Of a stretch of DNA of 64,000 nt, positions 55,925 through 59,424 are shown piece after piece. The notes under the pieces are model-generated. The model saw nothing but the letters and a program-made list of their open reading frames with translations. It searched no databases and was not told where the DNA came from. Source of the DNA: Fibrobacter sp. UWP2 (GTDB taxonomy: Bacteria > Fibrobacterota > Fibrobacteria > Fibrobacterales > Fibrobacteraceae); assembly GCF_900141705.1 (NCBI RefSeq), contig NZ_FQYM01000008.1, forward strand, positions 1 through 64,000, in the 5' to 3' direction. The position numbers and the translations under genes were made by a program. How positions within the stretch are numbered: the stretch's first letter is position 1; every line of letters starts with the position of its first letter.

Positions 55925-56180
55925 GGAAAAGACGAGGCTACGGGTTACTGCCAATATGGTGAGAAGAATGCATTGTAAAAATAAATACACAAAACTCCCG
56001 TGTCAAGCGCTTTTTTGAAAAATCCATGAAACGGCCCGCCGTCAACAAATTCCCAGTTGGCAGGCGTCTGTTTTGTGAAAAAACGCAAAGGACGTGATTT
56101 CCGCCCCTTTTTTTTGCATTTTCCTGTATTCTTTTTGTATCCTTTGAAAATGGGTATTTTTTTAGTTTATATTCGGTAGC

Positions 56181-56747
56181 ATGAAGATCGAAAAGCACAT
56201 TGTTACTGAGTCCAAGTGGACACGTTCTAGGAGGGGCGCCCTTGCTACGGCCCTGGGTATCACCGTGAGCCTCCCGCTGGCGGCTTGCGATATCTCGTCT
56301 TCGGGCGACGACGCAGCGGAACCCGCCCCCGAATCCAGCTCTGTGGTGGAACCCCTGGGCGGCGCTGTTTTTATACCCGAGTCCAGTTCGTCGGACGCAC
56401 TGCCAACCAGTTCGTCGGATGCACTGCCAACCAGCTCGTCGGACGTTCAGCAGCCTCCTAGCTCTTCGAGTAGTCTTTTGCCGCCTAGTAGCAGTTCCAA
56501 CGGGCCGGTGGACGTGCTTATTGCTGGCGACATCTATATTCCTGAGCCCAGCAGTTCCAGCGCCGAGCCCGAGTCCAGCTCGTCGGAAGTTCAACCGTCA
56601 AGTTCCAGTTCCGATGGCGAAGAGGTGCAGTGCGAAGAAGACCGCGCGTTTACGAGTCCGTTTGACCCGTGCCTCCCGGACGACTATCCCGTGGTGAGCA
56701 TGCCCTCGACGGTGGGCCACATCCAGGTGCCCCTGGTCAACGTCTAG
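56181..56747 (+). CDS. twin-arginine serine-rich lipoprotein, putative modified precursor
   Basis: A 188-aa protein with SRRGAL (Arg17-Arg18) before a hydrophobic stretch and lipobox LAAC (Cys36): a Tat-type lipoprotein signal. The mature part is dominated by SSSS runs and repeats of ALPTSSSD, ending in a short region with two cysteines (CEEDRAFTSPFDPC) and a conserved-looking VSMPSTVGHIQVPLVNV tail. It is followed after 5 bp by a radical SAM/SPASM protein, which makes it the likely substrate. TTGAAA, 18 bp, TATATT precede the ATG by 7 bases, with no ribosome site. Confidence 0.7.
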   Translation: MKIEKHIVTESKWTRSRRGALATALGITVSLPLAACDISSSGDDAAEPAPESSSVVEPLGGAVFIPESSSSDALPTSSSDALPTSSSDVQQPPSSSSSLLPPSSSSNGPVDVLIAGDIYIPEPSSSSAEPESSSSEVQPSSSSSDGEEVQCEEDRAFTSPFDPCLPDDYPVVSMPSTVGHIQVPLVNV

Positions 56748-56752
56748 TATCC

Positions 56753-57832
56753 ATGAACCTCGTTCTGAGCCTTACAGAGCAGTGCAATCTGCGTTGTACG
56801 TATTGTTACTACAAAGAGTCTCATGCGGGTCGCGTCAAAGTGATGAGCGACGAGGTCATGGAGGCTGCCATCGGGCTTGCGGTAAGGCGCACGGTCGCCT
56901 TTAGGCAACGCCGCCTGAACATCACTTTTTTTGGCGGTGAGCCTCTGCTCCGCTTCGATGCCATTAAACGTGGTGTGGAATATGCAAAAAAAGTGGTAAG
57001 CGAAACTGCGCCGCAGGGCTTTGTCGTGCGCTTTGCCGTGAATACCAACGGCACGCTTTTGAACGACGAGATCGTCGATTTTATGAAGCGCGAGAACTTC
57101 CAAATCTTCCTTTCGCTGGACGGTTCCGCCGAGCGCCACAACATTTGCCGCAGGCAGGTGAACGGCGAGGGAAGCTTTGACCTCATTGCACCGCACATTA
57201 AAACGCTTGTCAACACCGACGTCATTGTGCTCGCGGTCATTACGCGCGACAATATCCGAGGACTTTGCGACTCGTTCAGGTGGCTCTATGCGCAGGGCTT
57301 TAAAAACATCACCTCAGCTGTAGATTTTGACGGCAAGTGGACCGAGGAGGAATTGGACGCCCTCGGCGCGGAATACCAAAAATTGGCGGAACTTTGGGTT
57401 CAAAAGAAGAAGGCGGGAGACGTCTTTTACCTGGGGACCATTCACGACAAGGTGAAGATTGCCGTGGAGGGTTCGCGTTACCGCCTGTACTCGTGCCATG
57501 TTTACGAGGGAGGTCTCTCGGTCGCGACCGACGGGAGCATTTTCCCATGCACGCGGTTCATCGCCTCGGACCCGGAAGCCCCCTATTGCCAGGGGAATGT
57601 CTTTACGGGCGTTGACGAACATCGTGCTAACGCGGTACATGAATTTGTCCACAACGACAAGGCCGCCTGCGAGGGCTGCGCCATTCGGCATCGCTGCACG
57701 GCGCATGAGTGCGCCTGCACTTCGTTTTACACCACGGGAACCTTGGAAGGCGTCTCGCCCGAAGTCTGTGCGCACGAGCGCATGCTCGCCGCGATTTGCG
57801 ACGACGCTGCGGATATGATACTGACAAAATAA
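56753..57832 (+). CDS. radical SAM/SPASM peptide maturase
   Basis: A 359-aa protein with the radical SAM cluster CNLRCTYC (Cys11, Cys15, Cys18), a FFGGEPLLR segment near 62 and a C-terminal SPASM domain with eight or nine further cysteines (CHVYEGG, FPCTRF, CEGC, CACTSF). This set is that of anaerobic sulfatase-maturase and peptide-maturase enzymes (rSAM/SPASM). The start at 56753 is chosen because it is 5 bp after the lipoprotein gene and gives a normal N-terminus. The pair resembles rSAM/lipoprotein systems known from Bacteroidetes. Confidence 0.8.
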   Translation: MNLVLSLTEQCNLRCTYCYYKESHAGRVKVMSDEVMEAAIGLAVRRTVAFRQRRLNITFFGGEPLLRFDAIKRGVEYAKKVVSETAPQGFVVRFAVNTNGTLLNDEIVDFMKRENFQIFLSLDGSAERHNICRRQVNGEGSFDLIAPHIKTLVNTDVIVLAVITRDNIRGLCDSFRWLYAQGFKNITSAVDFDGKWTEEELDALGAEYQKLAELWVQKKKAGDVFYLGTIHDKVKIAVEGSRYRLYSCHVYEGGLSVATDGSIFPCTRFIASDPEAPYCQGNVFTGVDEHRANAVHEFVHNDKAACEGCAIRHRCTAHECACTSFYTTGTLEGVSPEVCAHERMLAAICDDAADMILTK

Positions 57833-57852: not shown

Positions 57853-57971
57853 TAAAAAAAAGACCCCTTCAGGTAAAGGAGGTAACCTAAAGGGGTCAGG
57901 GAGTGTTTGGGTATGCCAAAAAATTAGCTTTCGCATGCCCCAAAATCCATCCGGGCCGGAACATTTGTGTT
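57853..57971 (-). ncRNA. candidate small RNA with anti-Shine-Dalgarno loop
   Basis: On the minus strand a TATACT -10-like box (complement of 57978-57983) is followed by about 118 nt without an ORF of note and a terminator hairpin (57862-57897) with 8 T residues. The terminator loop reads TACCTCCTTT, the complement of a Shine-Dalgarno sequence. The -35 box is poor. No transcript data support it. Confidence 0.35.
57854..57897 (-). terminator. intrinsic terminator with CCTCC loop
   Basis: Minus-strand stem of 8 and 4 bp around one mismatch (GACCCCTT...AAGGGGTC), ten-base loop, then a run of eight T (A54-61 on the plus strand). It may end the sRNA above or read-through from the gene at 58051. 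Confidence 0.75.
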
Positions 57972-58050: not shown

Positions 58051-59424
58051 TTAGAAGGCGATTTGGGTGGTTACTGCGCCGTGTACAGGGTGAAGTGGCG
58101 TTTTTTTGCTGTTTTTGAAGGTCGTGGTGAGCGAAAAGTCCAGGAAATCGGCGTGGAGATGCACCTCGTTTTGGATCTGGAGGCGCCTGGTGGGTAACCC
58201 GTCGGGGGCGACAATTACCGTTTTTACGCGATTTTTGGGGGAATCCTGGTATTGGACGCCCAATTCGAGCCTCGGCGGCCCGAATCCCTCCCCACGGGTG
58301 TGGCGCACCCTGCCTTTGCCCCCCAGGGTCCAGGACTCGACTGCCTGGGAGGTGACTCCCGCAATCCAGTCGGTGCGGCGGCAGTTTTCGCTGCCCTCGA
58401 GGCAGGTGGCGCCGAGGAACACGCGTGCTTCCGGCGGCCCGCTTTGGAGCGTCGCCTTGAAACGGGTTTGCACGCTGTCGCTGTGCAGCGGGTTGATGAA
58501 ACGCGCATTGAGCGAACCCTTGGTGTCGAGGAAGTTCTTAGCTGTGGCGGAAACGGTTTGCGAACCCCAGAGGCGGCTCTTTAAAATACCCGGGCTTAGC
58601 CGGGCGAAACTCGGGACGGAGTCCCCGTGCGCATACAGGGTGGTCTTCCACGAGGGTATCCCTGTTTGCGAGAGTTCCGCCTTGACCAGGGGCTTTTTTT
58701 GACCCGCCTCCCACCAGCCCGAAATTTTCCCGAGGTTAAACTTTGTCTGTAATGCCCCCGAATAGATTGGTTTCTCGCGGTGGTTCTTGCGGAACCAAAA
58801 GATCCCCTCGGCGCTGCTTTTGCTGTTGAAGGTGTAGCCACCGCGGGCTTGCACGGTGCGGCTCGTGTCCAGGAGGCCTGCCAGGTGGAAGTTCCCGATG
58901 GGGTAGAGGAGGGCGGTTCCCCACAGGGTGTCGAGCGGAAAGTGGCTGTGGAGTTCCTTGGTGGAGATTTGACCGAGGTGGGCTTCGTTCCCGCCGTTTT
59001 TGTAGGTGAGCAGTTCCTGCGTGCCGAGCCGGAGGGTGTAGCGGTAAAACGAAAGGTCGAGTTCTTCGCGGAGGCTCTCGATGCGGCCAGTGGAATCGAG
59101 TCGAGCCTTCCAAGTGGCGCTCCCGTGCGGGATGATCCCCGGGCTTTTTTGATTTGCGGTGCGTTTTTTGCGACGGGTGTCGGCAATTCTTTTGCGTTCG
59201 GCGCACGGCTCCTGCGCGTATACCTCGGCCAGGAGGCAGGCTTCGCCCTCGTTGCCCTCGTCCAGCAGGGCAAGCATCTCTTGCGCCTGTTCCGGTGTAA
59301 TGATCCCGCCGTCCCACCAGTCAAATATGTCGGCTTCGTTTACGGCGTGTCCCGTGCCTGCGGCGCTCAGGAGGGCAAACAACGATAACCGCGCCGTCCA
59401 AAATAAAAAACATTTGAGGTCCAT
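58051..59424 (-). CDS. putative outer-membrane protein, 457 aa
   Basis: A 457-aa protein with a hydrophobic signal (about 10-27). Residues 31-60 (DWWDGGIITPEQAQEMLALL) look like a short helical domain seen in ComEA-like or similar helix-hairpin starts, followed by a beta-rich region of about 380 residues that ends in TTQIAF, suggestive of an outer-membrane barrel. The gene ends 151 bp before the terminator at 57897. No family is recognised with confidence. Confidence 0.6.
   Translation of the reverse strand: MDLKCFLFWTARLSLFALLSAAGTGHAVNEADIFDWWDGGIITPEQAQEMLALLDEGNEGEACLLAEVYAQEPCAERKRIADTRRKKRTANQKSPGIIPHGSATWKARLDSTGRIESLREELDLSFYRYTLRLGTQELLTYKNGGNEAHLGQISTKELHSHFPLDTLWGTALLYPIGNFHLAGLLDTSRTVQARGGYTFNSKSSAEGIFWFRKNHREKPIYSGALQTKFNLGKISGWWEAGQKKPLVKAELSQTGIPSWKTTLYAHGDSVPSFARLSPGILKSRLWGSQTVSATAKNFLDTKGSLNARFINPLHSDSVQTRFKATLQSGPPEARVFLGATCLEGSENCRRTDWIAGVTSQAVESWTLGGKGRVRHTRGEGFGPPRLELGVQYQDSPKNRVKTVIVAPDGLPTRRLQIQNEVHLHADFLDFSLTTTFKNSKKTPLHPVHGAVTTQIAF

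Follow-up and report, generated by a model that had tools for sequence, protein, structure and literature searches.

The described systems closest to the gene pair analysed here are the PapB (NF047865) and CteB (5wgg, 5why) maturases, which gave the best family and structure matches of its enzyme and share with it a radical SAM core with SPASM-type cysteines as well as a small precursor encoded next to the enzyme. PapB accepts Cys-Xn-Asp with n = 0–6 (PMC9413430). Three further systems invite comparison: the TIGR04133/TIGR04134 pair, in which a radical SAM enzyme likewise adjoins Ser-rich lipoproteins, the FibroRumin maturase (TIGR04136), a radical SAM peptide maturase whose name suggests Fibrobacter, and the anaerobic sulfatase-maturating enzymes (anSME), which resemble the present enzyme in length and fold (TM 0.8), in the lack of an N-terminal extension and in targeting short protein motifs. 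In a 2014 survey of RiPPs in anaerobes, the sole Fibrobacteres genome has no RiPP type against its name (PMC4289311). Our searches of an open-access literature collection found no report of a Fibrobacter radical SAM/lipoprotein system of this kind.

The pair lies in a stretch of 64,000 nucleotides of Fibrobacter sp. UWP2 (contig NZ_FQYM01000008.1), referred to below as the window. PapB, TIGR04133, TIGR04136 and anSME were all rejected as the home of the window enzyme, since each score was below the cut-off: 226.2 versus 340 bits for PapB, 51.6 versus 425 for rSAM_w_lipo (TIGR04133), 55 versus 400 for TIGR04136 and 113.7 versus 349 for anSME. The enzyme also differs from CteB in lacking its first ~98 residues, from both PapB and CteB in that the partners are lipoproteins or Lys-rich proteins, many of them Cys-free, and from anSME in having no sulfatase partner.

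The gene pair and its enzyme

The sequence-only reading had proposed a precursor and its maturase, and this pairing is supported: both reading frames are present (Table 1), with 5 bp between the stop codon of the lipoprotein gene and the ATG of the enzyme gene (56753), and a partner stands beside nearly every homologue of the enzyme, far above chance. Such spacing is normal for the family, in which intergenic distances are mostly −4 to +16 bp. The promoter match is weak, since the consensus scan found 2 such matches against 1.3 expected. The minus-strand hairpin, located between the pair and an opposing gene (58051–59424), probably serves the latter.

Table 1. Features of the gene pair and its flanks (positions in the window).
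Feature	Position	Strand	Basis or remark
Sigma-70-like promoter match TTGAAA-18-TATATT	56144..56173	+	consensus scan; just 5' of the pair
Putative substrate lipoprotein, Ser-rich, 188 aa	56181..56747	+	ORF
Conserved N-terminal block MKIEKHIV...RRGALATALG...LAAC	56181..56288	+	alignment; signal peptide, possibly leader
Candidate site 1, GAVFIP (context EPLGGAVFIPE)	56361..56378	+	motif count versus shuffles
Candidate site 2, GDIYIP (context LIAGDIYIPE)	56526..56543	+	motif count versus shuffles
Conserved C-terminal element SMPSTVGHIQVPLVNV, including candidate site 3, GHIQVP	56697..56744	+	clade comparison; motif count versus shuffles
Putative maturase, radical SAM/SPASM protein, 359 aa	56753..57832	+	ORF; Pfam Radical_SAM, 6.3e-18
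Terminator-like hairpin, T tract on minus strand	57864..57881 (inverted repeat 57861–57897)	-	scan

The enzyme is a member of the radical SAM/SPASM peptide or protein maturase superfamily, as seen from its CX3CX2C core (C11, C15 and C18), its SPASM-type cysteines and its fold. The Pfam SPASM match is marginal (E 0.15; score 12.8 against a cut-off of 21.5); the eight cysteines of this region are conserved throughout 113 homologues, among which Cys 11, 15 and 18 as well as Cys 248, 266, 306, 309, 315, 320, 322 and 339 are invariant or nearly so. The radical SAM core starts the protein, with no N-terminal domain before it, and the alignment with CteB starts only at residue 99 of the latter. The AlphaFold2 model (pLDDT 91.8) gave CteB (TM 0.82) and anSME (TM 0.80) as its best fold matches.

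Distribution and partner classes

Among 168 Fibrobacterota genomes searched, about 118 homologues of the enzyme (48–100% identity) were found in 64 genomes, all of them Fibrobacteraceae and belonging to 4 of the 41 genera. The spread outside this phylum was judged from a peptide-pattern scan of genome contigs alone, which returned records from Fibrobacter and two weak matches from elsewhere. Rumen and gut Fibrobacter have a radical SAM enzyme family of their own, each gene adjoining that of its probable substrate.

An upstream lipoprotein with the shared N-terminus, often in two or more tandem copies, accompanies about 80 of the enzymes. The roughly 34 enzymes of a sister clade almost always have instead a small Lys-rich partner, encoded downstream and without an obvious signal peptide (about 30 enzymes, with L080, L100 and L110 added on inspection; no partner type was assigned at L072, L108 and the broken L045). 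Partner class tracks the enzyme tree, with 10 label changes among 113 enzymes versus 51.9 in shuffles; two of the script-assigned labels were wrong, as L112, labelled class III, has a lipoprotein 80 bp upstream and L033, labelled class II, has a window-type C-terminus. Neither Pfam nor NCBIfam gave a convincing match for two lipoproteins adjacent to the enzyme, two solitary ones and six class III proteins. The class III proteins (e.g. L091, L097, L105 and L117), encoded downstream of the sister-clade enzymes, are small, Lys/Ala-rich and very divergent, and their composition recalls histone H1-like tails.

The window lipoprotein

The lipoprotein carries a twin arginine at residues 17–18, a lipobox (LAAC, with Cys36) and Ser runs, and two cysteines (C151 and C164) lie within its last 45 residues; Pfam returned nothing of note and NCBIfam no match. 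In the alignment of the N-terminal block (A2), M1, I3, G26 and C36 are invariant. Tat export, which the sequence-only reading had suggested, is not supported and was rejected as a family trait, because of 113 related N-termini only 2 have the twin arginine and only that of the window lipoprotein has the strict Tat motif; TatC is encoded in the genome. Ser runs were also rejected as a signature, since the Ser-rich lipoproteins of the other (TIGR04133) system of this genome have them too.

The same reading had pointed to a Cys-containing C-terminal region. Within the window's clade, a search for conserved C-terminal residues did reveal an element, SM-x-[ST]-x-[VI]-G-H-[IV]-x-x-P with small variations, of which SM followed by [VI]-G-H-[IV]-x-x-P is present in all five lipoproteins; the cysteines are not supported as the defining feature, because two of the five have none in the mature part.

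A glycine motif common to the partners

The mature window lipoprotein contains three copies of the motif G-x-[VIP]-x-x-P (0.25 expected), a number reached or exceeded in 24 of 20,000 shuffles. A narrower form, G-x-[VI]-x-[IV]-P, composed with the three sites of the window already in view, has an expectation of 0.02 and was matched by 0 of 20,000 shuffles. The motif is in excess in class I (17 versus 3.6 expected), class II (21 versus 2.4) and class III (11 versus 2.0), with 0 of 1000 shuffles reaching the observed number in each case, and its strict form is limited to 12 of 32 class I and 8 of 26 class III proteins. When other anchor residues replaced Gly in a looser form of the motif, five of six gave no clear excess and Ala a weak one. 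No occurrence was found in 14 control lipoprotein-like ORFs (1,995 aa), a small set in which some ORFs are doubtful and one (L081) belongs to the family.

We drew up the motif with knowledge of the data, and only two tests come near to being held out. In the first, a profile trained on class II scored 4.09 on class III proteins, above 1000 of 1000 shuffles (2.40); part of this signal reflects general hydrophobicity around Gly, because the reversed proteins scored 3.33. In the second, the predefined pattern was counted in lipoproteins that stand away from any copy of the enzyme, and gave 17 occurrences versus 5.5, in 11 of 18 proteins versus 4.8. The form [AGS]-G-[ILMVDEN]-[PVILM] is present in 17 of these 18 proteins. 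Across 12 divergent class III partners the only invariant residues are Met1 and the motif Gly; in a weak AlphaFold2 model of a class III protein (pLDDT 70.6, pTM 0.47) the motif lies between two helices. This motif, common to otherwise unrelated partners, looks like the modification site, and we regard G-x-[VIP]-x-x-P in this role as a well-supported proposal.

Alternative explanations

The enzyme could instead be a ranthipeptide-type maturase that links Cys to Asp or Glu by thioether bonds in the C-terminal region, the glycine motif being structural. The nearest NCBIfam model (PapB, 226 bits) and the nearest solved structure (CteB) point this way, as do the cysteines found in the C-terminal block of all 82 class I lipoproteins examined (C-x-D in 64) and the CEED and CLPDD of the window lipoprotein; in class I this block is stronger than the glycine motif and could be the real site. 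However, the PapB score is under its cut-off of 340, and cysteine is missing altogether from 19 of 28 class III proteins, from the mature region of 8 of 11 in class II and from that of two of the five lipoproteins in the window's own clade, while the enzymes of such partners are still about 50–60% identical. PapB membership was rejected on the same distribution, since class I has Cys-Xn-Asp/Glu but those two clade members and the majority of class II and class III partners do not, and Cys was rejected as the common target because most class II and III partners lack it. The putative chemistry is, as far as the partner sequences tell, not Cys-dependent in most partner classes, and we consider the thioether explanation unlikely.

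The conserved blocks might also direct export, sorting or assembly, with the enzyme modifying another molecule and the adjacency reflecting co-regulation. Short glycine motifs and N-terminal blocks can have a sorting role, and some lipoproteins do stand alone. When we asked whether enzyme and lipoprotein occur apart, which the sequence-only reading had considered damaging to its proposal, the enzyme proved to be nearly always accompanied by a partner, whereas about twenty lipoproteins sharing the N-terminal block (20 loci, L163–L182) lie away from any enzyme copy. These solitary lipoproteins are, however, almost confined to enzyme-positive genomes; moreover, the enzyme clade predicts the partner type and the enzyme fold is that of SPASM enzymes modifying peptides or proteins, all of which makes this explanation quite improbable. 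Among Fibrobacter genomes, the N-terminal block profile matched in 59 of 60 enzyme-positive versus 2 of 20 enzyme-negative ones (G066 and G106, the latter at E 0.008) and the profile of the class I C-terminal block in 49 of 60 versus 0 of 20, five of the enzyme-negative genomes being at least 93% complete. The solitary lipoproteins are candidate in-trans substrates. Several of them (L174–L177 and L179–L182) have lost the lipobox Cys and kept the N-terminal block.

That [AGS]-G is a processing site, with the partner cut at Gly and the enzyme modifying the released peptide, is highly improbable: [AG]-G does look like double-glycine cleavage sites and class III partners are small, but several sites lie within one lipoprotein and no consistent peptidase or transporter was noticed beside the two-gene loci when their neighbours were read by eye.

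Proposed maturation

The explanation that we favour as a whole, and hold to be reasonably probable, is that a motif-directed maturase modifies lipoproteins before export at G-x-[VIP]-x-x-P and acts on solitary relatives in trans. At the sequence level, the pairing, the co-occurrence, the motif enrichment and the agreement of partner class with the enzyme tree are established. We infer the roles of motif, N-terminus and solitary proteins, and the order of events, as follows. The radical SAM/SPASM maturase would be the product of the downstream gene, and its substrate that of the upstream gene; the N-terminal block of the substrate would be a signal peptide and possibly also a recognition leader. 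Modification would take place in the cytosol, at the short repeated sites within Ser-rich linkers (three in the window lipoprotein), and the modified protein would then be exported via the ordinary lipoprotein route; the solitary lipoproteins of the same genomes would be modified in trans. Our best guess for the chemistry is a cross-link or an epimerisation that needs no Cys and takes place at the motif Gly or right beside it. The sequence-only reading had not covered the N-terminal block, the repeated sites, the solitary lipoproteins or the sister clade with Lys-rich partners.

A broader proposal, offered tentatively and more doubtful than probable, is that one motif-directed enzyme family decorates many different proteins per cell, both products of neighbouring genes and targets in trans, whether surface lipoproteins or Lys-rich proteins, at G-x-[VIP]-x-x-P by Cys-free chemistry, with the signal peptide doubling as leader. 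Fibrobacter is a major cellulose-degrading gut genus. If true, the proposal would describe a genus-wide system in which a single enzyme family serves substrates of unrelated architecture through one shared short motif. The three glycines of the window lipoprotein offer a directly testable site, and the Cys-free partners a natural substrate set for finding the chemistry.

A TIGR04133 system in the same genome

Two other genes of this genome (G000:C1) are above the TIGR04133 cut-off (621.8 and 591.2). The window lipoprotein has no match to lipo_with_rSAM (TIGR04134), and the only match in the genome lies elsewhere (25 versus 39.8 bits). Unlike the window lipoprotein, the lipoproteins of the TIGR04133 locus lack G-x-[VIP]-x-x-P and have Y-G-x motifs. 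At this locus (L139, 1977–5983) the two TIGR04133 enzymes are interleaved with three Ser-rich lipoproteins bearing Y-G-[VIC] repeats (PKYGVPM, AKYGVLMP and AKYGVVIV), which may be the sites on which that system acts.
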